Origin: a virus
Virus record (IMG/VR): IMGVR_UViG_3300030329_000870
Coordinates: 13,300 to 37,562 of that record
Reading direction: 5' to 3' (one strand)
Length of the DNA stretch: 24,263 nucleotides
Position 1 is the stretch's first letter. Every line of letters begins with the position of its first letter. Position numbers and translations under genes: made by a program. Below the pieces are notes generated by a model. That model was given only the letters and a program-made list of their open reading frames with translations. It searched no databases and had not been told where the DNA came from. Positions 1,739-22,200 of this stretch are shown here, in pieces.

Positions 1739-1743
1739 TTATT

Positions 1744-2140: not shown

Positions 2141-2141
2141 A

Positions 2142-4921: not shown

Positions 4922-4964
4922 ATATATATACCTCCTTGTATATTGTTTAAGAATCTTAGTTATA

Positions 4965-8697: not shown

Positions 8698-9466
8698 GTA
8701 TTAACCTCCTATGTTGGTCTAAATTTTCTAAGTCAGTCGGGTTTCTATATTTCAGGTCATCAAACAATTTCATAACTCTTACGTTATCTACGTGACCTCG
8801 TAACTCTTTAACAAACTTCATAGCCTTTGGTACTGCGTCAGGGTCTAAAGCTATGATTGCTGTTGAGAACTGTGACAAGTACCTCTTGTGTGATTCAGAC
8901 AGTGACGTACCCAACACAGCCACCCCGACATATACATCACTGCCTACAACCGCAGCACTCACACAGTCCTCAACAACTACTGCGACTGTACCATAACCAT
9001 GAGTGTATGGCAAGTCGCTTTTACCGTATCTCTTCCATTTAGGGAGTCTTTTTCCCAATGCACGACCTGTAGCGTCAACTATTTTTGCACTGTGACAAAT
9101 AGGAAACACAACTCTGTGGTCTTTCACGTCATACATTAGCTCAACTTCATCCTCGTCAAGTCCATATTCATCTCTGAATGGCATGACCTCTTTGGAATGA
9201 GACACGATAAACTCTGGCAGGACAAACTCCTCTTTTTGCTGATGCTGTACGTTGGACGAAAGAGATTGTTTTATATCGTCAGCCGACAGCCTAACTCTCG
9301 TACCACCAGACAAATCACAACCTGCTTTGTAGCAGTTCCACATCAGTTTGCCCATGTTATTTGTAGCTGTAAATGTTTTAACACCGTGACAAGAAGGACA
9401 ATCCATTCTCCTAGTTTCCCCATCACGTATGTTTAAATCACTTACTATATTATATATATTATTCAT
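8678..9466 (-). CDS. DNA primase with zinc ribbon and TOPRIM domain
   Basis: 262 residues. Makes RNA primers for the fork. The N-terminal zinc ribbon is Cys23, Cys26, Cys45 and Cys50 (CPSC...WNCYKAGC); the TOPRIM core has Glu166 (VVVEDCVS) and Asp208/Asp210 (ALDPDA). The frame is open to a GTG at 9502, but ATG 9466 has an AGGAG Shine-Dalgarno eight bases upstream and overlaps the integrase stop by eight bases, so it is preferred. The C-terminus ends near residues PTDLENLDQ and overlaps the helicase gene, so the two were probably derived from, or act like, a gp4-type primase-helicase. Confidence 0.92.
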   Translation of the reverse strand: MNNIYNIVSDLNIRDGETRRMDCPSCHGVKTFTATNNMGKLMWNCYKAGCDLSGGTRVRLSADDIKQSLSSNVQHQQKEEFVLPEFIVSHSKEVMPFRDEYGLDEDEVELMYDVKDHRVVFPICHSAKIVDATGRALGKRLPKWKRYGKSDLPYTHGYGTVAVVVEDCVSAAVVGSDVYVGVAVLGTSLSESHKRYLSQFSTAIIALDPDAVPKAMKFVKELRGHVDNVRVMKLFDDLKYRNPTDLENLDQHRRLIHGTVSR

Positions 9467-10544: not shown

Positions 10545-11389
10545 TAGGCAGCCACCAGTTCTTTGAACTGTGGTGTAGCTATCCACTTGTTGACCTCAAG
10601 CTCTCTGTTAAGCATGGTCACGTTCTTGGTATCACCCTTGGTGTCCTTGACTGCGAATCCATTTCGTTCATCACCGTAGGTAGAGTAGTTGGTAAAGGCA
10701 GAGTATAGTGCAAAGGCATTTGGACCACGCACACTTGCCTCCTGTGAGTACAAAGCGAACATCTTCTTAGCCTTGGTTTCAGACATAATCTTCTCAAGCA
10801 ATGCTTTGACATCAGCATACTTAGTAAGTGTGTCAGCCATGACCTGTAGTTTACGTGTCTGTTGAAAGAAATCTCGTTCTGCTCGTTGCAGTTTGTAAAC
10901 AAACCCTGCGTTGGTATAGTTAGACGAGTGCCTACTCTGCACCTTGTCATGCTCACCGTTTATCTGCCCATTAAAACAAAACTGATCTATCGTACCCAAG
11001 AAACAGTTGGCAGATGTCAAGCTATCTATAGATGTAAAGGCAATCCATCTAGGATTAATAACTGTCTCCATTGTAGGAGTAGTAATACGTTCAATCCTAC
11101 GAGGTAAGGTCACATCCATACAGGCGAACCCACCTCTACGCCCTGTTCGCCAGTTAAACTGAGCACCTTCCAACTCATCAGGTTCTAGTATGTCGGTCAT
11201 TGTAGACCACACTCCATTGAAAAATTCACCATATGGTGCGACTGGTCTGCCAGTACCCACATAATCTACTGCTTCGCCTGTGTCTAGTCTCCTGACTAGC
11301 TTTTTGTGAGGTACTTCAGTGGGTTCTACTGATATGTTAAAGTCAATATCCTCTGGAATATCTAATTGGTTTGTGAAATCTAATGGCAT
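10544..11389 (-). CDS. DUF932 family protein
   Basis: 281 residues, first gene of the minus-strand replication operon. The motif FCFNGQINGEHDKVQSRHSS with nearby FTSIDSLTSANCF is characteristic of DUF932 (phage/plasmid-like protein) found on plasmids and phages, of unknown biochemical function, often next to replication or antirestriction genes. The start at 11389 has a consensus AGGAGG Shine-Dalgarno and a sigma70-like promoter about 40 bases upstream, suggesting strong early expression. Its stop overlaps the integrase start (TAATG). It may condition the cell or protect DNA early in infection; that is inference from position only. Confidence 0.85.
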   Translation of the reverse strand: MPLDFTNQLDIPEDIDFNISVEPTEVPHKKLVRRLDTGEAVDYVGTGRPVAPYGEFFNGVWSTMTDILEPDELEGAQFNWRTGRRGGFACMDVTLPRRIERITTPTMETVINPRWIAFTSIDSLTSANCFLGTIDQFCFNGQINGEHDKVQSRHSSNYTNAGFVYKLQRAERDFFQQTRKLQVMADTLTKYADVKALLEKIMSETKAKKMFALYSQEASVRGPNAFALYSAFTNYSTYGDERNGFAVKDTKGDTKNVTMLNRELEVNKWIATPQFKELVAA

Positions 11390-11428
11390 ATGTTGCCTCC
11401 TTTTCTGTTATGTTTCAACTGATACTTA

Positions 11429-11457
11429 GTTATACTATATAATGTACGTGGGGTCAA
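11429..11457 (-). promoter_or_regulatory. Sigma70-like promoter of the replication operon
   Basis: On the minus strand TTGACC (11457-11452) is followed after exactly 17 bases by TATAAC (11434-11429), reading toward the DUF932 gene at 11389. The -35 box overlaps the TGA stop of the HNH endonuclease gene. It is the only gap of more than 40 bases in the operon from 11.4 to 5 kb, supporting its use as the start of the early/replication transcript. Confidence 0.75.
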
Positions 11458-12191
11458 GCACATTCTTTTACCCAATCTAATTTATTGCTTTTCTCTAGGT
11501 TATCTTTTGCCCACAGGGGTTGCAGGTTTGTGTAGTGAAAACATTTCTTCTGTTCTTCTTCTTTTGTTAAGTCAAAAGAACTGCAAGGAATTATGTGGTC
11601 TATATGCCAACCGTTCTTGGACCAATTATCCCATGTCATGCCCTCTTTAAACTTACTTTCTAAATACTGCTTTAGTTTTTTTATACTACAACCAACAAGG
11701 ACGAGAGAACTTTCTTTTTTTGTAGATAAATGTTCTCTTAATTCTTTGTAAAATCTATTGCGTAAATTAATTGTTAATTTAAAATCAGGGTCAGCATGAT
11801 ACCTATTATGAGTATATTTTTTATTCTTTTCTAAACTTCTCTCCTTATTTTTTTCGTACCAAATTCTGACTTTATTTTTTATTTTTTCTTTATTATCTAT
11901 GTAATAATTCTTATGATATTCAGTGACTTTTTCTCTATTATTTTCTCTATATTTTTTCTGTTGCTCGATTATTTTTTCTTTATTATTTTTAAAATAGATT
12001 CTATGACTTTCTTTTAATTTTTCTTTATTATTTTCATAATAGATTTTTTTAGTTTCTTTTACTTTTTCTTTATTATTTTCATAATATTTTTTTACAGTCT
12101 CTAACCTTTTCTCTCTATTTTTTTCGTACCAAATTCTAGCATCGTTTTTTGATTTTTCTTTATTATTTTCATAATAGGTTTTAGTTGGCAT
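11454..12191 (-). CDS. HNH endonuclease with eight 15-residue N-terminal repeats
   Basis: 245 residues. Residues 6-125 are eight tandem 15-residue units of the form YYENNKEKxKExxKI, very Lys, Glu, Asn rich and predicted helical. The C-terminal part is an HNH nuclease: His196-Ile-Asp198-His199 (GWHIDHIIP), Asn222 (YTNLQPLW) and Asn231/Lys234 (AKDNLEKSNK). Such free-standing HNH genes behave as homing endonucleases that cut relatives lacking them. Base use is far more A/T rich than neighbouring genes on this strand, as expected for a recent arrival. It lies between the lysis gene and the replication promoter, with a GGGAG Shine-Dalgarno at the preceding stop. Repeats may bind DNA; function of that part is unknown. 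Confidence 0.88.
   Translation of the reverse strand: MPTKTYYENNKEKSKNDARIWYEKNREKRLETVKKYYENNKEKVKETKKIYYENNKEKLKESHRIYFKNNKEKIIEQQKKYRENNREKVTEYHKNYYIDNKEKIKNKVRIWYEKNKERSLEKNKKYTHNRYHADPDFKLTINLRNRFYKELREHLSTKKESSLVLVGCSIKKLKQYLESKFKEGMTWDNWSKNGWHIDHIIPCSSFDLTKEEEQKKCFHYTNLQPLWAKDNLEKSNKLDWVKECA
11817..12176 (-). repeat. Eight tandem 45-bp coding repeats in the HNH gene
   Basis: Encodes units starting YYENNKEK, WYEKNREK, YYENNKEK, YYENNKEK, YFKNNKEK, YRENNREK, YYIDNKEK and WYEKNKER, each 15 residues long. DNA copies are diverged but share the TTATTATTTTCATAATA-like stretch. Copy number could vary by slippage. Confidence 0.85.
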
Positions 12192-12192
12192 C

Positions 12193-12612
12193 TTATTTCT
12201 CCCATCTATAAAATATGTGGTTGTCTATTCTTGCAGTACGTGTCTTTGTCACAGCCCAATCAGGATAGACATTAACTGCGTGGTAATGTGTCGCACCATC
12301 TAACATGTCAACGGTCTTACCGTCAAGCACACTAATCGCTACCATCATGGACTTAGCCCAAGCCTTGTGATCTGTTGGATAGTCCTTCAGACCGTCACAG
12401 AACCATGAGAACTGGCACTTGTGTCTTACAGGTAGGTCACTACCTGAATGTCTTACTCCCTGTGTAACGACATTACACACGCTGTCAGGGTATCTGCTAT
12501 CATTTACCCTATTGATTACGACCTGTGCCACAGCTATCTGACCTGCCGTAGATTGTGACCTAGCTTCCCAATAGATGTTCATAGCTAGGCATACGAGTGC
12601 TGTTGTAAACAT
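12193..12612 (-). CDS. SleB-type cell wall hydrolase (endolysin candidate)
   Basis: 139 residues. Matches the hydrolase_2/SleB pattern: NIYWEAR with probable catalytic Glu16, GQIAVAQVVINRV, CQFSWFCDG, then GATHYHAxxVxPxW and a terminal IDNHIFYRW. This family cleaves peptidoglycan glycan strands and serves as endolysin in many marine phages. The N-terminus (MFTTALVCLAMNIYWEAR) begins inside the conserved domain, so no separate signal peptide is seen; release probably needs a holin. A one-helix peptide gene and a 56-residue gene sit just upstream in the same operon, the latter ending one base before this start. Lysis role is inferred from family and context. Confidence 0.88.
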   Translation of the reverse strand: MFTTALVCLAMNIYWEARSQSTAGQIAVAQVVINRVNDSRYPDSVCNVVTQGVRHSGSDLPVRHKCQFSWFCDGLKDYPTDHKAWAKSMMVAISVLDGKTVDMLDGATHYHAVNVYPDWAVTKTRTARIDNHIFYRWEK

Positions 12613-12613
12613 G

Positions 12614-12784
12614 TCACCATACCTTTCTCATTATTCGTTTCTTTAAATCTGCCCATTGACTATTCGTAATCATGTGCATCATACACAGTACAAGCCAACC
12701 CTGAGACACATCTTTGTGTAGATAGTCCATGACTTCCTTGTTGTCAGGGTTGTTAAGTTCCTTTTGTACGTACTCTAAATCCAT
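12614..12784 (-). CDS. 56-residue hypothetical protein next to the lysin
   Basis: Reads MDLEYVQKELNNPDNKEVMD and ends WADLKKRIMRKVW. The start has a GAGGTGA Shine-Dalgarno and follows the stop of the one-helix peptide by two bases; its own stop is one base before the lysin start, so the three are coupled. It contains a short amphipathic segment (GWLVLCMMHMIT) flanked by a basic C-terminus, which might touch a membrane. Not recognised; lysis regulator or unrelated small protein are both possible. Confidence 0.65.
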   Translation of the reverse strand: MDLEYVQKELNNPDNKEVMDYLHKDVSQGWLVLCMMHMITNSQWADLKKRIMRKVW

Positions 12785-12786
12785 TA

Positions 12787-12906
12787 TCACCTCAATAGGG
12801 CAGGGAAAGTAAAGCTACTCAGCCCTGCTATGTTTAAAAAATATTCTACTGTGGCAATGCCTAACACAAGTGCCACACAGATTTGTAGGGTTAAGGTGTC
12901 ATTCAT
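12787..12906 (-). CDS. 39-residue single-helix membrane peptide
   Basis: Reads MNDTLTLQICVALVLGIATV then EYFLNIAGL and a short tail. Residues 6-28 form one probable transmembrane helix with a short charged N-terminus. The start overlaps the previous stop by eight bases, with only a weak Shine-Dalgarno, and the gene ends two bases before the 56-residue gene, two genes upstream of the cell wall hydrolase. Size and place fit a small holin or spanin-like lysis helper, but the sequence alone does not show it. Confidence 0.6.
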   Translation of the reverse strand: MNDTLTLQICVALVLGIATVEYFLNIAGLSSFTFPALLR

Positions 12907-13051
12907 TTTTTAATTTTCTTATGTATATTTTATCTATTTCTTCGTCTACTACAAAGCCATTGTTTTCTAATACGTCAAGTATTTCTTCCCATAAAGGGTT
13001 TTCAAAAATGCAATCTTCATATACACAACGGTTATCAATAACAAGACTCAT
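12899..13051 (-). CDS. 50-residue acidic hypothetical protein
   Basis: Reads MSLVIDNRCVYEDCIFENPL and ends DEEIDKIYIRKLKNE. Start 13051 is two bases after the previous stop and uses a GGGAG Shine-Dalgarno that lies within that stop region. The pattern looks like a small alpha/beta protein with two Cys. Not recognised. Supported by coupling, ribosome site and protein-like composition. Confidence 0.62.
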   Translation of the reverse strand: MSLVIDNRCVYEDCIFENPLWEEILDVLENNGFVVDEEIDKIYIRKLKNE

Positions 13052-13052
13052 T

Positions 13053-13238
13053 CTATTTCTCCCTTTTTTCAACTACTTTAAATTCTAAATTTTTAATATT
13101 ACGCATACCTTTACTTGCTTCTTTGTATGCCTTGACTTGTTCTTCGTTGTCACACAGTCTAACTAGAGGCATCACACCCTTTGTTAAATCACGCATAGAC
13201 TCTAACTCTTTCTTGTACCATCTGTAATCAAACGCCAT
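13053..13238 (-). CDS. 61-residue hypothetical protein
   Basis: Helical, highly charged protein (MAFDYRWYKKELESMRDLTK and then KAYKEASKGMRNIKNLEFKV). The start overlaps the end of the upstream gene by 11 bases and has an AAAGGA Shine-Dalgarno. Similar small helical proteins occur in marine phages, from memory. Function unknown. Confidence 0.68.
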   Translation of the reverse strand: MAFDYRWYKKELESMRDLTKGVMPLVRLCDNEEQVKAYKEASKGMRNIKNLEFKVVEKREK

Positions 13239-13596
13239 CTTTATACATTCCTTTCAACGAGTTTAGTTTGTTTTCTAGTAGTGTTATAGCTGACGCTATG
13301 CCATACGTTTGTTCAGCTACCCAAGCATTATGTCTTACGTCAGGCTTCTCATCTATGTACACTCTTAGATGAGTACACGCATCAGGTGGAGCACCATGAG
13401 ACCAATAGGTATCAGGGTACTTCTTCTTATCTAGGTATTGCCCTTTCACCCTGATGTTGTATCGTTCTCTGTTAAGATACTGACGCAACTGTTTGACAAA
13501 GGCTTTGCCTTCTTCGTCATTCGGTATCTCACAAAATTGATAGCGTGAGTTCTTCTTGTAGTGACTATACTTTTCTTGATTAGTTTTCTTATCCAT
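13228..13596 (-). CDS. 122-residue conserved marine phage protein
   Basis: Basic N-terminus (MDKKTNQEKYSHYKKNSRYQ) followed by a compact domain with KQLRQYLNRERYNIRVKGQY and a later THLRVYIDEKPD segment, ending in a helix. Resembles unannotated proteins of marine cyanophages and podoviruses that share the pattern 'RVKGQxL...LRVYI', from memory. Overlaps the upstream gene by eight bases with a GAGGA ribosome site. No function known. Confidence 0.72.
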   Translation of the reverse strand: MDKKTNQEKYSHYKKNSRYQFCEIPNDEEGKAFVKQLRQYLNRERYNIRVKGQYLDKKKYPDTYWSHGAPPDACTHLRVYIDEKPDVRHNAWVAEQTYGIASAITLLENKLNSLKGMYKDGV

Positions 13597-13750
13597 ACAT
13601 TCCTCGCAATTCTTTTTTTAGTTTGTCTCCTGTTATCTTACGATAGGCTTCAATTAATAAGGCTATATCTTCCTGTTGCTTAACAGTCAAGCCTGTTACT
13701 TTAAGCCAACCACCTTCCCATGCTCTGTCTATTCCCACATCTATTTTCAT
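13589..13750 (-). CDS. 53-residue hypothetical protein
   Basis: Reads MKIDVGIDRAWEGGWLKVTG and ends RKITGDKLKKELRGMYG: two strands, then a helix pair. An in-frame upstream ATG at 13795 lies inside the methyltransferase gene, but ATG 13750 overlaps the methyltransferase stop (ATATGA) and has GGAG seven bases upstream, so the shorter form is preferred. Not recognised. Confidence 0.68.
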   Translation of the reverse strand: MKIDVGIDRAWEGGWLKVTGLTVKQQEDIALLIEAYRKITGDKLKKELRGMYG

Positions 13751-14907
13751 ATCTCCATTCCTTCCATGATATGTTGTATTACATCTACTGTCCACCCATT
13801 GCCTAACATCTTGTAGCGTTGGCTGTTGCTAATAGGTTTGAATGCACCACCCTCTTCAAACAGACCGTAGCTAGTGTAGTAGTCTGGTACAGTCTGCAAT
13901 CTCTCACACTCCTTCGGAGTCAATGCTCTCCAATACATATCCTCATGGTTGACCACCACGTTATCCTTTGTAAGGGTAGTAAGTGTACCTGTTTTCTCAT
14001 CTGCCCTAGTCTCTATACGAGCTTTGGCTTTGATGTCAGGGTTGTAGTCATCACGCTTGCCTGTCTCAGGATTAATCTTACGCTTGATGATTGAACCACA
14101 GACTATCTTAGGTTCTCTGTGTTCACCCTGCATGGTGGTCAAGGCAGGTGCTTTACCTGATGTAGAGTACACACGCTTGATGATGTCATAACCTTTGAGG
14201 TCAGCTTCACCTACCTGATGACAACCCTTCAAGAGATACTTGTGGTCTACACCATCTACTCTAGTAGTATTCATCTTGTCATCAAAGACTAACTGCCTTC
14301 TGGCTTTCTCGTAGTACATCTTCATAGAACCACCCTTGAAGTAGTTGGCATCGACACAGTAGGACTTGTCTCTGTCCACCATACCGTCCTCTATAATGTC
14401 GGACAATACTATGCCCTTGTCCTTGTAGGGTGCAATAGGAATGTTAGTCCAATACAATCGCTTACGGTGGTGAGCAGAGAAATCTTGGCTATTAATTAAG
14501 ACAGGCTCGACACCTAACTCAGCAGAGATTCTATCTTGATGCTCCTGTTTCATAGGTACATTCTCAAACAGGAAGTACTTAGGCTTGAGGTCACGCAAGG
14601 CATCAAAGATAAGTGTAGACAAGTCACGCTCATCATTGTCACCTTTGCCCTGACCTGCCACACTATAAGGCTGACAAGGAAAGCCACCCATCAACAGGAA
14701 TACGTCCTTGCCTACAAGCTCTGTGTAGTTCCTAGCGTCACCATGACGTATAGCTTCTGGATAATTCATACGACTGACAGCTTCAGCGTACTTGTCAATC
14801 TCAAAGGCATGATACTCTACCTCATTGTCCATCAGACCTAGCCTGTCGAGTGCTATCGCACCACAAGACATGCCATCGCATAGACTAGCTACAATTTTCT
14901 TCGGCAT
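13747..14907 (-). CDS. C5-cytosine DNA methyltransferase
   Basis: 386 residues. Transfers a methyl group from S-adenosylmethionine to cytosine C5. Motif I SLCDGMSCGAIAL (8-20), motif IV GGFPCQPYS with catalytic Cys78, motif VI ENV (115-117), motif VIII HRKRLYW (147-153), a target-recognition region about 170-330, and motif IX/X MLGNGWTVDVI near 367-377. No restriction enzyme gene is adjacent, so it is an orphan methylase, probably guarding phage DNA from host restriction or altering regulation. Target site cannot be read from sequence. Motif I has Asp-Gly in place of the common Phe-x-Gly start, as in several phage enzymes. Good GAAGGA ribosome site; overlaps the upstream gene by 23 bases. Confidence 0.93.
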   Translation of the reverse strand: MPKKIVASLCDGMSCGAIALDRLGLMDNEVEYHAFEIDKYAEAVSRMNYPEAIRHGDARNYTELVGKDVFLLMGGFPCQPYSVAGQGKGDNDERDLSTLIFDALRDLKPKYFLFENVPMKQEHQDRISAELGVEPVLINSQDFSAHHRKRLYWTNIPIAPYKDKGIVLSDIIEDGMVDRDKSYCVDANYFKGGSMKMYYEKARRQLVFDDKMNTTRVDGVDHKYLLKGCHQVGEADLKGYDIIKRVYSTSGKAPALTTMQGEHREPKIVCGSIIKRKINPETGKRDDYNPDIKAKARIETRADEKTGTLTTLTKDNVVVNHEDMYWRALTPKECERLQTVPDYYTSYGLFEEGGAFKPISNSQRYKMLGNGWTVDVIQHIMEGMEI

Positions 14908-15082
14908 AAATTTTCCTTCCCATATCTAAAATGTGTTGTTCTAAGTCCTTTAATAAAGTGGACATAACTTCGTTATCTTTATGTATCTTTTGCCTCACAA
15001 TGAACGCTCTGATACTAAAGGCATCAAACATACTTAGTTCTTTGACATTAGCTTGTACCTGATCCCAGTTGCGTAGTGTCAT
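14885..15082 (-). CDS. 65-residue hypothetical protein
   Basis: Helical protein (MTLRNWDQVQANVKELSMFD, then IRAFIVRQKIHKDNEVMSTL). Start overlaps the upstream stop by ATGA with AGGA seven bases upstream; the C-terminus overlaps the methyltransferase start by 23 bases. Not recognised; its position suggests co-expression with the methylase. Confidence 0.65.
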   Translation of the reverse strand: MTLRNWDQVQANVKELSMFDAFSIRAFIVRQKIHKDNEVMSTLLKDLEQHILDMGRKIYAEENCS

Positions 15083-15571: not shown

Positions 15572-15903
15572 TGGACTTCTCCTCTGGTTTCTATCCATAC
15601 CTTTGCACCACAGGACAAAGGCTTCTCTGGTCTGTAGACCAACTCCATTTCTCCAAGCACCTTGACTCTATGGGCATAGGTATTACTCTTGCCCTGCTTC
15701 ACAGTAAACACAGGGTCACACTTGCCATGCTTTGCATTGGCTTTGATAACGTGTTGGTTGACATGGATTCTTGTAAGCATTGGCTTACTCCTTTCAGGTA
15801 AGTGTCCGACATCGGACAGTGAATTTTTCATTGCTGTCATGTACCAATCAACATCTGCTTTTTCTTTAGCAGATAATCGGTGATAGTTAGGAATTATATT
15901 CAT
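15553..15903 (-). CDS. Conserved phage protein with N-terminal extension across a palindrome; two possible starts
   Basis: The C-terminal 74 residues (from MLTRIHVNQHVIKANAKHGK to the PLSCGAKVWIET segment) match a phage/plasmid small-protein family that normally starts near MLTRIHVNQHVI. ATG 15777 at that point has its own AAAGGAG ribosome site. However, the frame is open upstream to ATG 15903, which also has a GGAG site, giving a 42-residue extension (MNIIPNYHRLSAKEKADVDW onward). The extension spans the recurring 16-bp palindrome, read in frame as LSDVGH. So either a fusion of two short proteins or a dual-start gene with the palindrome as its leader. Function unknown. Confidence 0.75.
   Translation of the reverse strand: MNIIPNYHRLSAKEKADVDWYMTAMKNSLSDVGHLPERSKPMLTRIHVNQHVIKANAKHGKCDPVFTVKQGKSNTYAHRVKVLGEMELVYRPEKPLSCGAKVWIETRGEVQCELNE
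15777..15818 (-). promoter_or_regulatory. Internal start with Shine-Dalgarno and upstream palindrome
   Basis: On the minus strand the palindrome at 15803-15818 is followed by AAAGGAG and then ATG 15777, the same order as at four other genes in this region. This supports an internal start for the 74-residue conserved domain even though the frame is open upstream. Confidence 0.55.
15803..15818. repeat. 16-bp palindrome, copy 1
   Basis: TGTCCGACATCGGACA, in frame in the 15553-15903 gene and 26 bases upstream of its internal start 15777. Confidence 0.9.
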
Positions 15904-16054
15904 ATTCTACTCCATAATAATTCCACCATGCTTCTTCTGTAATTCCTTCTTCTTTAGCGTACAACTCTGCATTGACTGCACACCCTTGACATAGGGTTTC
16001 ATAATCTTGCCATAATAAAGGAGTCTCACAACTCTTACAATATTCTTCATCCAT
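15887..16054 (-). CDS. 55-residue zinc-ribbon-like protein
   Basis: Reads MDEEYCKSCETPLLWQDYET then LCQGCAVNAELYAKEE and an acidic, aromatic tail (EAWWNYYGVEYEYNS). Cys6-x2-Cys9 and Cys22-x2-Cys25 form a four-cysteine zinc ribbon. Start 16054 has an AGGAG site seven bases upstream; the stop lies 17 bases inside the next gene. Possibly a small adaptor that binds protein or nucleic acid. Not recognised as a family. Confidence 0.68.
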   Translation of the reverse strand: MDEEYCKSCETPLLWQDYETLCQGCAVNAELYAKEEGITEEAWWNYYGVEYEYNS

Positions 16055-16075
16055 ATCAGTCTCCTATTCCTATAG

Positions 16076-16153
16076 TTATACATGATTCCACCATAAATAA
16101 AAGTGTAAAATTAGTATACCTATAAATAAAATATTTACAGTTCTCTGGTTCAT
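16076..16153 (-). CDS. 25-residue hydrophobic peptide
   Basis: Reads MNQRTVNILFIGILILHFYL then WWNHV: one membrane helix with a basic N-terminus. It starts in an ATGA overlap with the stop of the deoxyribonucleotidase gene. There is no clear Shine-Dalgarno, so translation would depend on coupling. The size is small enough to arise by chance; kept because of the overlap and the clean helix. Confidence 0.4.
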   Translation of the reverse strand: MNQRTVNILFIGILILHFYLWWNHV

Positions 16154-16683
16154 TTTACTTGCACCGACAGTTTATCTAACAGACTTTCAAGACTGTGCTT
16201 GTTTGCTTGGTATAATATACCAATGCCACCTTTGCCTCGCCACTTATCTATATTAGATGGCTTGTCATCGACAAGTATGTTCGGACTACCGTCAATTTCA
16301 TTGACTGCATAGTTCTCTTTCCTGCCTGTAATAACAAAGTTATGAGGCATTGGCATGAAGTCATGCTTCTCTAACCATCTGCGTTTCCAATAGGCAGAGT
16401 TATCTCTGTCACCTCGTAATGGACTTGAGCATATACCCCACTCCCAACCTTCGTATTCTGCGGTCAGCCTTCGGACATAGTCTACGAGTGACGCAGAACT
16501 TTCAAAAGGCTTTAGCATAAAAAAGAAATTTGTATTTCTTAACTCTCGCAAGGCTTCATTAATACGAGGTATCTGTTTCCAATGTGAAACATTGAAACGT
16601 GCAGGTAGTCCTGTGACTCCAAAGAAGTCAGCTATTACACCGTCCATATCAACATAGAGTTTATTTCCATATAAGTTTGTCAT
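16150..16683 (-). CDS. HAD-family 5'(3')-deoxyribonucleotidase
   Basis: 177 residues. Removes phosphate from (deoxy)nucleoside monophosphates, probably trimming the dNTP pool. HAD motif I YVDMDGVIADF with nucleophile Asp12 and acid Asp14; motif II ICSSP with Ser86; a Lys candidate for motif III at Lys122 in ITGRKEN; motif IV ILVDDKPSNI with Asp139/Asp140. Length and layout match the NT5C-like phage family. Start overlaps the 43-residue gene by ATGA. The gene contains several perfect short inverted repeats (16207-16223, 16261-16275, 16291-16305, 16523-16540, 16580-16594). Confidence 0.85.
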   Translation of the reverse strand: MTNLYGNKLYVDMDGVIADFFGVTGLPARFNVSHWKQIPRINEALRELRNTNFFFMLKPFESSASLVDYVRRLTAEYEGWEWGICSSPLRGDRDNSAYWKRRWLEKHDFMPMPHNFVITGRKENYAVNEIDGSPNILVDDKPSNIDKWRGKGGIGILYQANKHSLESLLDKLSVQVK

Positions 16684-16811
16684 GCTACGTTCCTTTGCTT
16701 TAGTGCTTTGACATCACGCCTGTCCTGCCTACGCTTACGCTTCCAATCATCACGCTTTGGTGTAGGCTTGTCGGACTTAGGCTTGGTTTTATTTTTAATA
16801 AAGTTCCTCAT
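16680..16811 (-). CDS. 43-residue basic protein
   Basis: Reads MRNFIKNKTKPKSDKPTPKR then DDWKRKRRQDRRDVKALKQR. About 40% Lys/Arg, likely disordered and nucleic-acid binding. It is joined to both neighbours by ATGA overlaps, which supports real translation. Not recognised. Confidence 0.62.
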   Translation of the reverse strand: MRNFIKNKTKPKSDKPTPKRDDWKRKRRQDRRDVKALKQRNVA

Positions 16812-17554
16812 GCTACATACTTCTTTCCATTCCCATGTGCAGGAATTAATATTGATTTTGCGTTTACTCTACTGCCACCACAAAGTTTACAACTTTGACA
16901 CGTGGTACGTCTACCTGCTTCTTCTGATGCAGGACATAATATCTCTTTACCTTTTACTAAGGTATTAAGTGGTGCTACCCTAAAGGTACGCTCACCATTT
17001 GACCAAGCCGTTTGAGCTTGCTCAATAGTGTCAGCACTACGCATCATGTACTCAGGTACATACTGAGCATTTTGCTCCATTGCCTGATGCGAATAAGCCG
17101 TATTTGATTTGCATTTAGATAGCAAGCTATCCCATATATAACTTGGAACAACAGCAGGATCACCATACGTGCCTAGCCTAACGTCCTTGTCCTCACCTAT
17201 GCTTGCTATGGTATTGTGTCCTAATGCTACAGGATAGTTACCTTTAACATAGGACTTGTAAACATTAGATGGACCTTGAAACAAGATCACATAACATGGA
17301 CGTTCTTTGGCTTGTTTAGCCACAGGATCGTCAGGTACAGCTATACCTTTATGTGGACAGTTACCACATATACTAAAATCTTCACCCATCTTTGATGCTT
17401 CCATAGGATTCATATCACTACGCATGATGTACGTTTGTACCATGTTCCCTGTCTTACCATTGCTAGACTTTAGCAAAGCTACAACCATGATAGGTTTACC
17501 GTCAAGTAAACTAGCACCTTCGTATATTACGTAACCTGTAGGTTTTTTAGTCAT
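16808..17554 (-). CDS. Conserved cysteine-rich phage/plasmid protein of unknown function
   Basis: 248 residues from ATG 17554, chosen over an in-frame TTG at 17566 because GGAG lies eight bases upstream. Recognisable landmarks are KTGNMVQTYIMRSDMNPMEA, SICGNCPHKG, the LGTYGDPAVVP segment, ERTFRVAP, and LCPASEEAGRRTTCQSCKLC. The Cys pairs (CGNC, later CxxC-x2-C) suggest metal or Fe-S binding. Similar proteins occur on many phages and plasmids without known function (from memory). The recurring palindrome sits 19 bases upstream of the start. The coding sequence carries eight perfect inverted repeats of stem 6-7 bp. Confidence 0.78.
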   Translation of the reverse strand: MTKKPTGYVIYEGASLLDGKPIMVVALLKSSNGKTGNMVQTYIMRSDMNPMEASKMGEDFSICGNCPHKGIAVPDDPVAKQAKERPCYVILFQGPSNVYKSYVKGNYPVALGHNTIASIGEDKDVRLGTYGDPAVVPSYIWDSLLSKCKSNTAYSHQAMEQNAQYVPEYMMRSADTIEQAQTAWSNGERTFRVAPLNTLVKGKEILCPASEEAGRRTTCQSCKLCGGSRVNAKSILIPAHGNGKKYVA

Positions 17555-17573
17555 GTTATTCTCCAATTAAAGT

Positions 17574-17587
17574 GTCCGACATCGGAC
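17574..17587. repeat. Palindrome, copy 2
   Basis: GTCCGACATCGGAC followed by TGTTT, 19 bases upstream of start 17554. The ATG in its minus-strand loop opens a short frame (MSDTLIGE) that stops one base before 17554. Confidence 0.9.
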
Positions 17588-17820
17588 TGTTTCAGTTTTT
17601 AGTTTTCACTAAAAAGGTACATACCTAACCATCTTTGCTGTCGCACTGAGCATCTTGTGACCTGTGCTTAGTCTGATTTCAGACTGTCCGTTGCAGTCTT
17701 TTCGACACAGTATCTACTGTCAACTCATATGGTTTTACTTATTTTAGCTAGGCTAAATATGTACCTCATTAGTAAAAACTATTTTAGTGACAGGGCTGTT
17801 AAGCCCTGCCATTTGTGTTG
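17588..17820. other. Non-coding, hairpin-rich spacer; possible structured RNA
   Basis: No convincing gene on either strand. It contains a run of perfect inverted repeats: 17596-17615 (8-bp stem, 4-nt loop), 17670-17685 (AGTCTGA TT TCAGACT), 17707-17720 (ACAGTA TC TACTGT), 17743-17757 (TTTAGC TAG GCTAAA) and the terminator-like 17791-17808. Minus-strand transcripts from the 17821-18057 gene would run through it. It may be a 3' region with several hairpins or a small RNA; no tRNA shape or promoter was seen. Confidence 0.5.
17780..17810 (-). terminator. Terminator-like hairpin, copy 1 of a 31-bp repeat
   Basis: CAGGGCT GTTA AGCCCTG (17791-17808) forms a GC-rich 7-bp stem just after the minus gene ending at 17821. 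A T5 tract follows on the minus strand about 14 bases later, so termination is plausible but not textbook. The same 31 bp recur at 19112-19142. Confidence 0.55.
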
Positions 17821-18057
17821 TTACCCTGCAAAGTGCCAGAGTTTACGAACAGAGTTCGTGTTACGCTTGGTCTCAAACCAAACTGTACGCTTCCAGAAGT
17901 GGAAGCCAACCATGCAATCGCTACGGTCAAAGAGTTTGAAACCTCTTGACTTGAACTGCCTCTTACGAGTGAGACCTTTTAATCCTAAAAGGTTAAAACG
18001 AAATCCCTTTGTACCGTCATTCAAAGGCTTGATTGCTATGCAAGTAAAAAAGTTCAT
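17821..18057 (-). CDS. 78-residue basic hypothetical protein
   Basis: Reads MNFFTCIAIKPLNDGTKGFR then a Lys/Arg/Phe-rich body ending SVRKLWHFAG. ATG 18057 has an AAAGGAA site; an in-frame ATG at 18132 would read through the palindrome and promoter and is not favoured. A sigma70-like promoter and the recurring palindrome precede it. Coding DNA contains perfect hairpins at 17845-17859, 17889-17906 and 17974-17993. Not recognised; weak beta-rich character. Confidence 0.62.
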   Translation of the reverse strand: MNFFTCIAIKPLNDGTKGFRFNLLGLKGLTRKRQFKSRGFKLFDRSDCMVGFHFWKRTVWFETKRNTNSVRKLWHFAG

Positions 18058-18080
18058 GTAAGTTTCCTTTCGTTGTTGTT

Positions 18081-18094
18081 GTCCGACATCGGAC
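18081..18094. repeat. Palindrome, copy 3
   Basis: GTCCGACATCGGAC followed by AGTTT, 23 bases upstream of start 18057 and just downstream of the promoter at 18109-18139. The ATG in its minus-strand loop opens MSDNNNERKLT, which ends in an ATGA overlap with start 18057. Confidence 0.9.
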
Positions 18095-18108
18095 AGTTTA
18101 TGTATTAT

Positions 18109-18139
18109 ATTATATAAATACCTTTTTCCCAAAGGTCAA
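18109..18139 (-). promoter_or_regulatory. Sigma70-like promoter upstream of the palindrome
   Basis: Minus strand TTGACC (18139-18134), 17-base spacer, TATATA (18116-18111), overlapping TATAAT (18114-18109, spacer 19). The predicted start point is near 18102, so the palindrome 18081-18094 would fall at about +8 to +21, an operator or 5' hairpin position. The spacer region is itself an inverted repeat (ACCTTT TTCCC AAAGGT, 18120-18136). Confidence 0.55.
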
Positions 18140-18158
18140 GGTATTTATATTTATAATA

Positions 18159-18368
18159 CTATACCTTGTTTGCCCTAAATGCCACAAACAAATATCCAAA
18201 TGTTCCCGATAGGAACAAGACGCAAGCAAATCCAAACAGGTAGACATCAGCCCAGTTGTACCCGAAGTCAGCTACCTGTGTACTTTCCATAGCGTTGACT
18301 AGATGGAAGCCTACTAAAAAGTAGGCACTAGATAATAGCAAGATTGCTATGTAAGAAATAAATTTCAT
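18159..18368 (-). CDS. Two-helix membrane protein
   Basis: 69 residues (MKFISYIAILLLSSAYFLVG then an outside loop to about residue 40 and VYLFGFACVLFLSGTFGYLF). Two probable transmembrane helices, near 4-24 and 43-63, with a positively charged end (RANKV). It starts next to the TAA of the upstream gene with CGGAG nine bases upstream. The size suits a holin, superinfection-exclusion or membrane-anchor protein; nothing more specific can be said. The start codon lies in the loop of an 8-bp hairpin (18356-18374). Confidence 0.65.
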   Translation of the reverse strand: MKFISYIAILLLSSAYFLVGFHLVNAMESTQVADFGYNWADVYLFGFACVLFLSGTFGYLFVAFRANKV

Positions 18369-18581
18369 TTATTTAAGCTCCGATTTAACTTTAGTTAATG
18401 CTTCTATCAGACTATCTAAGTCTGAAAAAGGGTGTATGTCCATGTCACCATCACCATGTATGAGTGCTACCTCAGACACATCCCACTCTGACTTTTTATC
18501 TTGACCATGTTGGGCAATAGATATTTGTTTTCCATTTTCTAAAGAAAATCTAATGTTGTTAAAATCCCATTCATTAATCAT
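18369..18581 (-). CDS. 70-residue acidic hypothetical protein
   Basis: Reads MINEWDFNNIRFSLENGKQI then KSEWDVSEVALIHGDGDMDI and a helical end. An in-frame ATG at 18611 lies inside the palindrome, but ATG 18581 has the CGGAG site, placed in the loop of a TTAAT/ATTAA hairpin, and is preferred. Predicted alpha/beta, not recognised. Leader is copy 1 of the perfect 51-bp duplication. Confidence 0.65.
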   Translation of the reverse strand: MINEWDFNNIRFSLENGKQISIAQHGQDKKSEWDVSEVALIHGDGDMDIHPFSDLDSLIEALTKVKSELK

Positions 18582-18583
18582 AT

Positions 18584-18634
18584 TTAATCTCCGATTAATT
18601 GTGTCCGACATCGGACAGTTTCACTTTAAGTGAG
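18584..18634 (-). repeat. 51-bp leader repeat, copy 1
   Basis: Perfectly identical to 18826-18876 (offset 242 bp). Each copy holds, in minus-strand order, a TCACT/AGTGA dyad, the 16-bp palindrome and a CGGAG ribosome site in a TTAAT/ATTAA hairpin loop, ending just before a start codon. Acts as a portable 5' leader for two unrelated genes. Confidence 0.9.
18602..18617. repeat. Palindrome, copy 4
   Basis: TGTCCGACATCGGACA inside leader repeat copy 1, about 20 bases upstream of start 18581. Confidence 0.9.
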
Positions 18635-18638
18635 ATAG

Positions 18639-18824
18639 CTACATGCTATCCCACTCTTCAGGTGTAATACCTGTCATAATGAACTCTCGTTCATCAGCCG
18701 ACAAGTTCGGCATGACATTCTGGATCAACGATCCACCCTGCCAAAGATCAATCTGATCTTGGCTTACGTCAATATCCATTGACGATGTGTTGCCAGAAAG
18801 CATAGATGTTTTAGTAATAAGCAT
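18639..18824 (-). CDS. 61-residue conserved protein (LSADEREFIxTGITPEEWD family)
   Basis: Reads MLITKTSMLSGNTSSMDIDV then ending PNLSADEREFIMTGITPEEW DSM. I recognise this as a small family shared by phages, plasmids and bacterial islands, of unknown function (from memory). ATG 18824 has CGGAG in the loop of an ATTAAT/ATTAAT hairpin. The gene is almost wholly tiled by seven consecutive inverted repeats between 18634 and 18784, although its protein sequence looks like an ordinary family member. Leader is copy 2 of the 51-bp repeat. Confidence 0.78.
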   Translation of the reverse strand: MLITKTSMLSGNTSSMDIDVSQDQIDLWQGGSLIQNVMPNLSADEREFIMTGITPEEWDSM

Positions 18825-18825
18825 A

Positions 18826-18876
18826 TTAATCTCCGATTAATTGTGTCCGACATCGGACAGTTTCACTTTAAGTGAG
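18826..18876 (-). repeat. 51-bp leader repeat, copy 2
   Basis: Second perfect copy of the leader at 18584-18634, directly upstream of the gene starting at 18824. The identical length with no mismatch points to recent duplication or gene conversion. Confidence 0.9.
18844..18859. repeat. Palindrome, copy 5
   Basis: TGTCCGACATCGGACA inside leader repeat copy 2, about 20 bases upstream of start 18824. Confidence 0.9.
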
Positions 18877-18966
18877 TAGTTTAAAGACATACTCAGGTCT
18901 AGGATTATGTTTTCCCAATCGTGAGCAATAGCAATTCGCTTCTGCGTTGTGGTCATATGCCACCAT
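18868..18966 (-). CDS. Possible 32-residue ORF or remnant
   Basis: From ATG 18966 the frame reads MVAYDHNAEANCYCSRLGKH and ends PRPEYVFKLLT, a protein-like composition; the same frame stays open for nine more codons upstream (DFSEHDSY part) without a start. No ribosome site is close. A strong AAGGAGGTGAT site lies 60-70 bases upstream in another frame, so this may be the 3' end of a frameshifted gene. Low certainty. Confidence 0.3.
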   Translation of the reverse strand: MVAYDHNAEANCYCSRLGKHNPRPEYVFKLLT

Positions 18967-19030
18967 GTAGCTATCATGCTCTGAAAAATCCCGTTAGGGT
19001 TGCGATTATGTTAAGAATTGAATGAGACAA

Positions 19031-19043
19031 TCACCTCCTTTTT
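19031..19043 (-). promoter_or_regulatory. Perfect extended Shine-Dalgarno without a clear gene
   Basis: Minus strand AAGGAGGTGAT is the full complement of the 16S rRNA 3' end, the strongest ribosome site in the window, yet the frames that follow are 18 codons or shorter. Either a short peptide starting TTG, a frameshifted gene (see 18868-18966) or a non-translational use. Confidence 0.45.
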
Positions 19044-19059
19044 ATATTATTTATATTTT

Positions 19060-19142
19060 AATACTTTCACAAAGTATTCAAGTATTAAAATAAAAATACT
19101 ATAAAGTGTAGTATTTTAGTGACAGGGCTGTTAAGCCCTGCC
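19060..19142 (-). terminator. Tandem terminator-like hairpins, including copy 2 of the 31-bp repeat
   Basis: Behind the minus gene ending at 19158, the transcript meets CAGGGCT/AGCCCTG (19123-19140), then a 9-bp hairpin AAAATACTA/TAGTATTTT (19093-19117) followed by TATTTTAAT, then an 8-bp hairpin AATACTTT CAC AAAGTATT (19060-19078). The middle one has a U-rich tail and is the best intrinsic terminator. 19112-19142 is identical to 17780-17810. Confidence 0.65.
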
Positions 19143-19157
19143 GATGTGTGTAGTTCC

Positions 19158-19823
19158 TTAGGAAGGAACGTCATCAGTACCTGTTTTACTATCGGTTACG
19201 ATAGTCTTACCGATTACCTCAAAACTACCTTTGGTAGTCTCTTTGGCTGTGGATGTAACCTCATCCATCAGAAGTTCAAGAACTTCGCTGAGACTGATGT
19301 TGCTACGGTTACAAGTAACCTTGATGGCTTCAACCACTTCCTTCGGAGTGGATAGTTGAGGTTTAGCTTTGCTAGACTTAGCTTCGCTAGACTTAGCTTC
19401 GGTAGATTGTCCGACATCGGACTGTTTACCTTCGGTAGTCTCAGCCTTCTCTGTTCGCTTCTTTGAAGCGTTTACAGCTTTCTGTAAAGCTGACAGATTG
19501 GTAAAGCCTTTCTTTGAGGCTTTGTTAAAGGCTGTAGCCTCGGCTTGGTTTTCATAAAACCATTTAGCCTCTGACATTCTCCTACGATCTACTGATCGTA
19601 AACCACAAGTGTTCTTATCAGTATTGCCAATGGCAATCTGATGAGCTAGGAAACCGAGCCTAGTCCAAACCCCTATAGGGTTTTTAGGATCAAATACCTC
19701 GACATTTTCAATGTCAGCAGTGAATGTTCCACATTCAGCTCTATGTCTCTTTCGTAAGAAAGAAGCTATGTTTCTACCTTCGGTAGCTAGAGAGTTAGGC
19801 TGTGTTGATTTTGAGTTTGCCAT
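19158..19823 (-). CDS. 221-residue hypothetical protein with low-complexity linker
   Basis: ATG 19823 with AAAGGA eight bases upstream is chosen over in-frame upstream codons that would run into a large hairpin. N-terminal domain (1-110) has conserved-looking SFLRKRHRAECGTFTADIEN and a GVWTRLGFLAHQIA helix. Residues about 120-160 are a Ser/Lys/Glu/Ala linker containing SSEAK-type 15-bp repeats and the in-frame palindrome (QSDVGQ). The C-terminal part is helical, then Thr/Ser rich. Fourteen perfect inverted repeats with stems of at least 6 bp lie in the coding DNA. Not recognised; no catalytic motif. Confidence 0.68.
   Translation of the reverse strand: MANSKSTQPNSLATEGRNIASFLRKRHRAECGTFTADIENVEVFDPKNPIGVWTRLGFLAHQIAIGNTDKNTCGLRSVDRRRMSEAKWFYENQAEATAFNKASKKGFTNLSALQKAVNASKKRTEKAETTEGKQSDVGQSTEAKSSEAKSSKAKPQLSTPKEVVEAIKVTCNRSNISLSEVLELLMDEVTSTAKETTKGSFEVIGKTIVTDSKTGTDDVPS
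19365..19409 (-). repeat. Three 15-bp tandem repeats
   Basis: Plus-strand units AGCTTTGCTAGACTT, AGCTTCGCTAGACTT and AGCTTCGGTAGATTG encode SSEAK-like pentapeptides in the linker of the 221-residue protein. The third runs directly into the palindrome copy at 19409. Confidence 0.8.
19409..19422. repeat. Palindrome, copy 6 (in coding DNA)
   Basis: GTCCGACATCGGAC followed by TGTTT within the 221-residue gene, read as SDVG in the same frame as copy 1. No start codon lies nearby downstream. Confidence 0.88.
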
Positions 19824-20441
19824 TGAATTTTCCTTTACTTTAATTGTGTATTTATAAGAGAACAATATATCTCTCATAAGTATATGAGATATATTTTCTC
19901 GTTAAATACTAATACAATTAAAGGTAAGTTTGAGGTCGGTTTGCTTCCTCTGCCTGTGCCGTTCCACGCAGGACTGCAAGAAGCACAGCTTCTGAAGTTC
20001 GTGTGCAGAACTTGTGCAGGTGATGCGAGGCTTTCGGTTTGTCCGATGTCGGTCAGTTTATCTCGTAAGAGATAGGGGGTGCATCAACAGAAACATTGAA
20101 CCGATATGGTGAAATCACTCCTTCTGTACAACTTTGTTGTAGCAACTGATGTGATAACAGTTTACTCTAAAGAGTAAGTTGTTGATATATTGAGTGTTTT
20201 AGTCGGTCTGGTTTCTCACGGACTGCACGAAGCCTTCACACGCTGTCTAGACCCGGACCTTAGGTGCATTATGCGAGCATATGCAAGGGGGTGGGCGAGA
20301 GCCACTGGGGGTAGGCAGGTATACGTATACACAAATCTACACAGATCAGGTATTTTCACTGTTAACCACTACAGAAACCTACACACACGCTACTATATAG
20401 TATCATAAATAACACACTTATAAATAAAATGTATATACGCA
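19824..20441. other. Non-coding divergent region with large hairpin and GC-rich patch
   Basis: About 600 bases without a convincing gene. 19858-19900 is a long bulged hairpin in the probable 5' leader of the minus gene starting at 19823. Further hairpins are at 19995-20013, 20059-20074, 20127-20141 and 20162-20177. From about 20210 to 20330 the DNA is locally GC-richer and lacks hairpins; a 72-codon open frame with TTG start (20190-20408) crosses it but has no ribosome site and unconvincing composition. No tRNA or att core was recognised. Confidence 0.5.
20041..20054. repeat. Palindrome, degenerate copy 7
   Basis: GTCCGATGTCGGTC followed by CAGTTT, with the centre TG in place of CA and one arm mismatch; in the non-coding stretch upstream of the 221-residue gene. 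Confidence 0.75.
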
Positions 20442-20470
20442 TTGACGCACCCACAAATACGTGGTATAAT
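20442..20470 (+). promoter_or_regulatory. Sigma70 promoter for the rightward genes
   Basis: TTGACG (20442-20447), a spacer of exactly 17 bases, and the consensus TATAAT (20465-20470). The predicted start is near 20477, leaving a 5' leader of about 170 bases before the first plus gene. It is the best promoter match in the window and marks the switch to plus-strand transcription. Confidence 0.82.
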
Positions 20471-20924: not shown

Positions 20925-21557
20925 ATGGCAAGTAAAAAACAATCTAAAATGCCTGTAAGAAAAAATTATAAATCTGACAAGGCTTTTGAAAATGCAATGC
21001 TTAAATATATGATTAAACTTGAACCAGAAATGTTTGGTTTTAAAGTTACTCAACGAGAGCAAATGAATAAAGGCGGTATGATGAAAAAGAAAGGTTATGC
21101 TAAAGGTGGCACTGTATCTAAAAATCAACCAATGACTATGGATTGGTTTCGTAAAACAATCGGAACTGCTGAAGGAAGAAGATTAATAGGTTCAGGTGGA
21201 GGAACAGGAAGTTCCAATAGCCCATCAATGATTTTAAAAAAATTAATGGAAAAAAATACTCCTACTTTTAAAATTGATATGTCTTCTAAAAAGAAAATGA
21301 TTGAAAAAATAAAAGAGATGCAGGGCAAAAAAACAGCTAAAGCAGCTAAAGGTGGCATGATGAAGAAGAAAGGCTATGCCAAGGGTGGAGCTATGAAGAA
21401 GAAGAAGGGTTATGCTATGGGTGGTATGATGCCCACACAGGAACGTAAGATTAACCCCACTACAGGCATGACCATGAAAAAAGGTGGTATGATTGATATG
21501 CGTAAATCGGGCATGTTTTCTAAAGGTGGTGTGATAAAAAGATCACGTAAAAGATAA
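20925..21557 (+). CDS. 210-residue Lys/Gly/Met repeat protein
   Basis: Contains repeated KGGMMKKKGYAKGG-type blocks near residues 49-62, 142-155 and 156-168, then further KGG units to the end (KGGVIKRSRKR). Between them is a more normal domain (residues 66-135, TMDWFRKTIGTAEGRRLIGS and helices). Strongly basic, so it probably binds DNA or is packed in the virion; marine phages often carry such proteins without known role. AAAGGA ribosome site. Start of a run of small basic genes on this strand. Confidence 0.75.
   Translation: MASKKQSKMPVRKNYKSDKAFENAMLKYMIKLEPEMFGFKVTQREQMNKGGMMKKKGYAKGGTVSKNQPMTMDWFRKTIGTAEGRRLIGSGGGTGSSNSPSMILKKLMEKNTPTFKIDMSSKKKMIEKIKEMQGKKTAKAAKGGMMKKKGYAKGGAMKKKKGYAMGGMMPTQERKINPTTGMTMKKGGMIDMRKSGMFSKGGVIKRSRKR
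21073..21425 (+). repeat. Dispersed coding repeats GGMMKKKGYAKGG
   Basis: Three related stretches at 21073-21111, 21351-21389 and 21390-21425 encode the Lys/Gly/Tyr blocks. Copies differ mainly at third codon positions, so the protein pattern has been kept by selection after duplication. Confidence 0.7.
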
Positions 21558-21907
21558 TGGCAAATGTTCTTAGTACCTCACGTTATAAAAATGTCAAGCT
21601 TGACCTGACAACAGCGACAGCCACTACATTATACACTTGCCCATCACTAACAACTACCTTTGTGTCCTCTATCCTTGTATCGGAGGACAGTGGCAATGCC
21701 GACACAATAACCCTAACCATTACAAATGGCAGCAGTGTCTTCAGCGTGTATAAGGACAAGGCTGTGTCCTCTAAGGGTACTATAGACTTAATAAGCAATG
21801 ACCTGATACTTGTATCTGGGGATATACTCAAGGTCAAGGCAGGTACAGCCAACAGACTGCATGTAATAGTGTCCTTGGTTGAAGTACCCAAATCAACAAC
21901 GACATAA
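21557..21907 (+). CDS. Small beta-rich protein, possible virion decoration or tail component
   Basis: 116 residues (MANVLSTSRYKNVKLDLTTA, then Thr/Ser/Val-rich alternating strands such as TTFVSSILVSEDSGNADTIT and ILVSGDILKVKAG). Predicted all-beta, no charge clusters. Such short beta sandwiches often are capsid decoration, tail or fibre-associated proteins next to structural genes; this is inference from composition. Start overlaps the preceding stop (TAATGG). Confidence 0.65.
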   Translation: MANVLSTSRYKNVKLDLTTATATTLYTCPSLTTTFVSSILVSEDSGNADTITLTITNGSSVFSVYKDKAVSSKGTIDLISNDLILVSGDILKVKAGTANRLHVIVSLVEVPKSTTT

Positions 21908-21924
21908 CAACTAGGATAAAGTAA

Positions 21925-22200
21925 ATGGCAGGTATGAAAGGTCACACTATTAAAGGCGGTCACAAGCGTCCTACTAAAAAGGGTGCAGGTATGACCGCTA
22001 AAGGTGTGGCTAAATATCGTAGAGATAATCCGGGGTCTAAATTAAAAACAGCCGTGACTGAAAAGAAGCCTACAGGCTCAAGAGCTAAACGAAGAAAGTC
22101 TTACTGTGCGAGGAGTGCAGGACAAATGAAAAAGTTTCCTAAAGCAGCTAAAGACCCTAATAGTAGGCTGCGTCAAGCTAGAAGAAGATGGAGATGTTAA
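21925..22200 (+). CDS. DUF6321 family protein
   Basis: 91 residues. The segment KGVAKYRRDNPGSKLKTAVT followed by EKKPTGSRAKRRKSYCARSA and KDPNSRLRQARRRWRC is the conserved core of DUF6321, common in marine phages. Very basic (about one third Lys/Arg) with two Cys. Probably binds nucleic acid or is a virion protein; function not known. The next gene begins at the base after its stop. Confidence 0.85.
   Translation: MAGMKGHTIKGGHKRPTKKGAGMTAKGVAKYRRDNPGSKLKTAVTEKKPTGSRAKRRKSYCARSAGQMKKFPKAAKDPNSRLRQARRRWRC

Follow-up and report, generated by a model that had tools for sequence, protein, structure and literature searches.

Selection on the structure of coding RNA is known from RNA viruses. The genome-scale ordered RNA structure (GORS) of plus-strand RNA viruses runs through coding sequence, is kept despite sequence change, and has no single functional element. 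In phages, short hairpins before ribosome-binding sites serve as translational operators, as at the R17/MS2 coat site, and lambda nut and HK022 put are RNA antitermination elements. Post-transcriptional control in T4 is a further comparison case for the operators (PMC3014915), and many perfect inverted repeats lie within protein-coding genes of nematomorph mitochondria (PMC6649704). Here, we describe a zone packed with short perfect inverted repeats in 24,263 nucleotides (nt) of viral DNA (the window; positions 13,300 to 37,562 of IMG/VR record IMGVR_UViG_3300030329_000870, a contig of 37.6 kb). We read this zone as the 5' part of a leftward operon with the minus strand as transcript, and gene order and a location ahead of the replication genes mark the operon as putatively early:

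15803-20177, minus strand: hairpin-packed zone, read as the 5' part of the leftward early operon

Phages of the HMO-2011 type are recognized by a DNA polymerase A with a DnaJ-type zinc-finger insert and by homologous helicase, primase, and integrase modules. The DNA polymerase A reading frame of the window (4965-7004) has CxxCxGxG motifs and such an insert, and the helicase is 79% identical to that of Roseobacter phage CRP-345, 77% to that of CRP-1, and 69% to that of HMO-2011; therefore, the window comes from an HMO-2011-type marine podovirus.

As in GORS, structure in the zone runs through coding sequence, is kept despite sequence change, and cannot be assigned to any one functional element. 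GORS spans a whole RNA genome, whereas here one messenger RNA (mRNA) of a double-stranded DNA phage carries isolated, size-capped hairpins anchored at its 5' end; about 4.4 kb is affected, with control regions near chance, rather than folding energy being raised genome-wide. The nematomorph palindromes reach 284 bp, in contrast to the stems of 5 to 8 bp, loops of 3 to 5 nt, and length cap found here. Like the phage translational operators, a fixed short hairpin, GUCCR-AYGU-YGGAC, often lies before ribosome-binding sites, but it is joined by tens more hairpins of unrelated sequence and has no known binding protein. A structured leader and the repetition of this hairpin along the early operon recall the antitermination elements, although there is no Rfam match. 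Palindromic elements of the Rickettsia type and other repeat families are copies of one sequence; in the zone, the stems differ and only a 16-mer recurs widely. In the literature searched, we found no DNA phage whose early mRNA carries a local field of sequence-free hairpins that is anchored at the 5' end and capped in size, and those genome papers on the HMO-2011-type group that we consulted leave the zone unmentioned. The field also fails the tests for the nearest kinds. A hairpin-packed early mRNA of DNA phages has apparently not been described before.

Scanning for perfect inverted repeats with stems of at least 6 bp and loops of 2 to 8 nt, we found 75 in the zone, compared to 7.9 ± 2.8 (maximum, 16) in 300 dinucleotide shuffles of it. 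A first-pass annotation of the window had estimated about 64 where some ten were expected, a count that, like its boundaries, proved good; it had also put one repeat about every 55 bases between 17.57 and 20.18 kb, where the scan gave 56 (positions 17570 to 20180), or one per 47 bases. Perfect hairpins occupy 28% of the bases in the zone and 35% of those in 17570-20180, compared to 5% in positions 1 to 15000. The rest of the contig (33.2 kb) has 90 inverted repeats, near the 65 expected by chance. The following genes of the early operon carry such repeats:

19158-19826, minus strand: gp1, first gene of the early operon, 222 amino acids (aa), all-helical model, 17 perfect hairpins inside
18639-18824, minus strand: 61-aa early gene, phrog_20898 (unknown function), 4 hairpins
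16808-17554, minus strand: 252-aa early gene, phrog_2554 (unknown function), 8 hairpins
16150-16683, minus strand: 5'(3')-deoxyribonucleotidase-like early gene, 7 hairpins

Synonymous-codon shuffles of these genes gave means of 2.1 inverted repeats for gp1 (17 observed), 1.7 for the 252-aa gene (8 observed), and 1.06 for the nucleotidase-like gene (7 observed), while the polymerase, helicase, primase, and methyltransferase genes were at chance by the same measure. A gp1 alignment search identified 189 relatives, 80 of which were retrieved; 65 non-redundant gp1 regions were compared. Pooled, 63 gp1 genes contain 601 perfect inverted repeats, compared to 103.5 ± 9.9 in synonymous shuffles. The two kinds of shuffle rule out chance or base composition as the source of the hairpins, and the excess survives the comparisons with the rest of the genome and with codon-preserving shuffles on which the first-pass annotation had made its claim depend. 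A single repeated element is ruled out as well, as only the 16-mer repeats widely and it accounts for about 7 of the 75 inverted repeats. The annotation's statement that one element had not been copied therefore holds for most stems, which differ, and fails for a 16-bp palindrome, TGTCCGAcaTCGGACA, which is present in six copies and one variant. Milder excesses over synonymous shuffles are seen in the integrase gene (6 versus 1.9; 9459-10550) and a 301-aa gene (7 versus 2.2; 4016-4921) of the window.

The hairpins are limited in size. The ratio of observed to expected stems is 0.97 at 4 bp, 1.96 at 5 bp, 4.9 at 6 bp, 7.8 at 7 bp, 5.7 at 8 bp, and 1.0 at 9 bp (2 seen, 2.0 expected); stems of 9 bp or more are not enriched, and about 8 bp is the upper limit. 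Loops of 3 to 5 nt are favored, and the loop-closing pair is C-G in 41% of cases, compared to 16% expected; closing pairs of this kind are typical of stable hairpins. In the densest part, hairpins are commonly spaced 20 to 45 nt center to center, with short linkers between them. When relatives are pooled, the region beyond 1 kb upstream of gp1 has only a background density of hairpins. Density climbs along the leader and peaks at 12.5 per kb in gp1, apart from a partial dip around the gp1 start codon, and then falls to 5.4 per kb at 1 to 1.5 kb and about 1.5 per kb at 4 kb. The divergent operon of these relatives has no hairpin excess (112 6-bp stems versus 102 expected). Ahead of start codons, the loop often holds the ribosome-binding GGA while the stems vary. 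The features concerned are as follows:

20442-20470, plus strand: strong sigma-70-like promoter of the divergent rightward (structural) operon, which lacks a hairpin excess
19841-19925, minus strand: long imperfect hairpin, immediately 5' of the gp1 ribosome-binding site and with a perfect core at 19872-19889; covaries in relatives
18825-18841, minus strand: hairpin ATTAATC-GGA-GATTAAT, whose loop holds the ribosome-binding GGA, immediately ahead of the 61-aa gene start; relatives have it with different stems
18584-18598, minus strand: hairpin with GGA in its loop, belonging to a 51-nt module also found at 18826-18876

The two copies of this module (18584-18634 and 18826-18876) are identical, stand before successive early genes, and each contain a ribosome-binding hairpin, the repeated hairpin, and a CACTTTAAGTG hairpin.

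The first-pass annotation had proposed looking in related phages for arms that change in pairs, and this is what we observed. When 63 gp1 genes are aligned by codon, hairpins lie at the same codons with different stems and matching arms, so that both arms change together at fixed codons. At one position the stem versions are AACTCTT-ac-AAGAGTT, AATTGCT-ac-AGCAATT, and AGTTGCT-ga-AGCAACT, the first two of which encode near-identical protein; at another they are TTGAAG-gaa-CTTCAA, AAGTTG-gaa-CAACTT, and AAGAAG-gaa-CTTCTT. Of 169 codon differences between stem versions in gp1, 71 are synonymous. Two gp1 hairpins of the window stand at such positions:

19546-19562, minus strand: hairpin TGGTTTT-atg-AAAACCA; relatives have TGGTTCT-atg-AGAACCA at that alignment position
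19503-19523, minus strand: hairpin AAAGCCT...AGGCTTT, at a position with a hairpin in 24 sequences and three stem versions

Upstream of gp1, the leader (19941-20165, minus strand) is a conserved structured RNA of 50 pairs. In the leader alignment, 97.7% of cells are paired, compared to 32 to 48% in slid controls, and two-sided changes occur in 103 cells, compared to 32.5 in shuffles. A covariance model of its 3' domain, R1, recovers the window, which was outside the model-building set, and also matches CRP-1 (at about 53843-53919 of its record, 81.9 bits) and eight further loci, all likewise outside that set. At gathering score, Rfam gave no match in the window or four relatives; the best Rfam score for a leader (E value, 0.32) was to a miRNA model on the wrong strand. 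The leader has these parts:

19941-20016, minus strand: 3' domain, matched by model R1 with 60 bits and an E value of 3.6e-13
20141-20161, minus strand: 5' conserved string AACTGTTATnnnATCAGTTGC, predicted to pair with the 3' domain
20040-20055, minus strand: leader copy of the recurring hairpin, variant TGACCGACATCGGACA

Almost all of the 65 gp1 regions contain the recurring palindrome, as GTCCGA..TCGGAC or GTCCAA..TTGGAC, and nearly all of the 294 GTCCnnnnnnGGAC sites fall between -400 and +3000 of gp1. The fixed hairpin repeats about every 500 nt along the transcript. The other copies in the window are as follows:

19408-19423, minus strand: inside gp1, codes SDVGQ
18844-18859, minus strand: GUCCGA-UG-UCGGAC, before a start codon
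18602-18617, minus strand: overlapping the start of an 80-aa reading frame
18080-18095, minus strand: recurring hairpin
17573-17588, minus strand: upstream of the 252-aa gene
15803-15818, minus strand: inside a 116-aa gene, at the left end of the zone

The center of the palindrome is oriented, with YG in the sense strand in about four-fifths of copies. Its variable pair is G-C in 111 cases, A-T in 166, G-T in 11 (8 of which have a common inner sequence and may not be independent), and A-C in none. Because this pair is G-T 11 times and never A-C, we consider the palindrome less likely to be an operator in DNA than a hairpin in RNA, and it behaves as the RNA hairpin GUCCR-AYGU-YGGAC. A GGA-ATG start follows 126 of the 281 well-formed GUCC..GGAC copies, mostly 8 to 12 nt downstream; a fixed hairpin at the ribosome-binding site, with covariation, is also what defines phage translational operators. 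Where the repeated hairpin falls in reading frames (15803-15818, 18080-18095, 18844-18859, and 19408-19423), it writes SDVG into unrelated proteins, in the contexts SDVGQ (gp1), LSDVGHN, and LSDVGHLPERS, and the GTCCAA version of relatives gives SNVGQ.

The zone is present in all 65 of the non-redundant gp1 regions, including those of the cultured roseophages CRP-1 and CRP-345, where it is strong, and a scan of IMG/VR for the 16-mer gave 35 loci, mostly hairpin-packed too. CRP-212 has a mild, scattered excess at most. Members without a zone rule out a general property of the HMO-2011-type group, in which subgroup I is the largest and most widespread (PMC9038755). A tie to the conserved 252-aa gene is also ruled out, since CRP-403 and CRP-118 have this gene and no hairpin excess. 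In the relatives examined, gp1 always accompanies the array; its structure model is confidently helical in the core, and we found no known relatives by homology, no RNA-binding homology, and no fold match. A prophage or host origin was rejected, as gp1 was not found among 84,980 bacterial and archaeal genomes.

At the DNA level, an RNA G-U pair becomes G-T when the sense strand is read and A-C when the opposite strand is read, so imperfect stems bear on whether RNA or DNA is selected. After duplicates were collapsed and the recurring palindrome was taken out, single-mismatch stems include 56 G-T pairs, compared to 21.9 expected, and 24 A-C pairs, compared to 23.9 expected (P = 7e-5); under strict clustering of similar segments, the values are 40 versus 17.6 and 17 versus 15.9 (P = 0.008). 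The conserved gp1 hairpins have 20 G-T and 9 A-C pairs. The asymmetry was clear at 19 loci, absent at 65, and clear again once the palindrome and duplicates were removed. The first-pass annotation's caution about G-T pairs was thus justified, since early pooled tests conflicted. We regard selection in the sense RNA as moderately supported and favored rather than proven, the strand evidence being moderate because folding energies do not separate the strands.

Taking these results together, we give a probability of roughly 0.55 to the reading that the 5' part of the early-operon mRNA in these HMO-2011-type phages is kept by sense-RNA selection as a chain of short hairpins with a leader RNA and a fixed hairpin, with shielding as the most likely role. 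The hairpins would form during RNA synthesis and hold the message locally folded. Being small, they could be opened by ribosomes and would lie below the size bound by double-strand-specific ribonucleases (RNases); being dense, they would leave few long single-stranded stretches. Such folding may protect this message, the earliest of the virus and the most exposed, against single-strand-specific RNases, Rho, or antisense pairing. We infer that the fixed hairpin is a probable binding site for a regulator and that, together with the leader RNA, it may be recognized by a factor controlling early translation or elongation.

Several observations weigh against this reading. Strict clustering gives P values of only 0.008 to 0.03, and the G-U/A-C test without deduplication (65 loci) shows no asymmetry. 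Folding energies by strand, a comparison put forward in the first-pass annotation, came out equal (z-scores of -1.45 sense and -1.42 antisense over 700 windows), and first-mismatch preferences in loops of 4 to 6 nt have no strand bias. Linkers resemble control genes in composition and so show no visible avoidance of any particular RNase or Rho target. In HMO-2011, the zone is only weak and the first gene lacks a gp1 match, and CRP-2, CRP-603, CRP-207, CRP-3, CRP-738, and HTVC033P have no such zone in the early region. Ahead of the leader, we found no clear leftward promoter.

The first-pass annotation had offered selected structure and the mutational perfecting of quasi-palindromes as explanations; the former is supported and the latter disfavored. 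Template switching is known to homogenize the arms of inverted repeats (PMC8604942, PMC7202029), and acting at quasi-palindromes it could match the arms without any selection, which agrees with the paired changes of both arms, amino acid changes included. That process would give arms without a length limit, blind to strand and not confined to one transcript, whereas the excess stops at 8 bp (9-bp stems are at expectation), prefers loops of 3 to 5 nt and C-G closing pairs, and is restricted to the 5' part of one operon in one phage group. We favor selection on folded mRNA over template switching because stems are capped in length, one closing pair is preferred, the hairpins keep to the operon's 5' part, and G-U and A-C are tolerated unequally, and we hold an unselected origin to be highly improbable. 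Selected structure could also reside in DNA, as hairpins in single-stranded intermediates of entry, replication, or recombination or as cruciforms in the duplex. Stems are predominantly Watson-Crick, the two strands do not differ in folding energy, and C-G closing pairs and GAA triloops stabilize DNA hairpins as well. This alternative is nevertheless unlikely, since the sense orientation tolerates G-T and not A-C, the zone tracks the 5' end of the transcript while sparing the gp1 start-codon region and the divergent operon, and ribosome-binding GGA lies in the loops of hairpins before start codons.

Two other explanations place the structure in RNA and assign it a different role. The array may consist of binding sites at which a phage protein, perhaps gp1, or a host RNA-binding protein reads hairpin shape and size and coats the message for regulation, granule packaging, or processing. 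The sharp size window (stems of 5 to 8 bp, loops of 3 to 5 nt), the preferred C-G closing pair, the co-occurrence of the fixed hairpin throughout, and the constant presence of gp1, a helical protein, are in keeping with such binding. Yet gp1 has no RNA-binding homology or fold match, loops and stems other than the fixed hairpin share no sequence, and HMO-2011 has weak hairpins though its first gene does not match gp1, and we think this role unlikely. In an antitermination role, the leader RNA and repeated hairpin would act on the polymerase like put or nut, and the variable hairpins would prevent backtracking or Rho loading. A structured leader at the operon's 5' end, a repeated hairpin in the leader and over the first 3 kb, and the fading of hairpins with distance from the start would suit this, but most terminator-like sites in the zone are the repeated hairpin, no boxA-like partner came to light, none having been looked for, and we judge the role improbable.

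Outside the zone, we noted a reading frame at 11454-12191 (minus strand) with tandem NNKEK-type repeats followed by a C-terminal part resembling an HNH endonuclease, and small Lys/Gly-rich proteins with repeated KKGYAKGG motifs within the structural operon (20925-22200, plus strand). In an unrelated viral contig with one 16-mer copy (L035, 67.8% G+C), long reading frames have about two- to several-fold as many inverted repeats as synonymous shuffles.

It is conceivable, at somewhat less than even odds, that the early mRNA of a DNA phage is encoded, on top of its protein-coding genes, as a succession of sequence-free hairpins of limited size, together with a structured leader RNA and a repeated address hairpin, and that this protects and directs the message during the first minutes of infection. 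Both the leader RNA and the repeated hairpin are new RNA elements in their own right and can be tested directly. If the early mRNA is truly folded, these phages would provide a natural experiment on local mRNA structure in bacteria, bearing on decay, translation, Rho, and defense, with CRP-1 and CRP-345 as cultured carriers and CRP-2, CRP-603, and CRP-207 as natural relatives without the zone. If true, the finding would mean that strong RNA-level selection acts through protein-coding genes of a double-stranded DNA virus.

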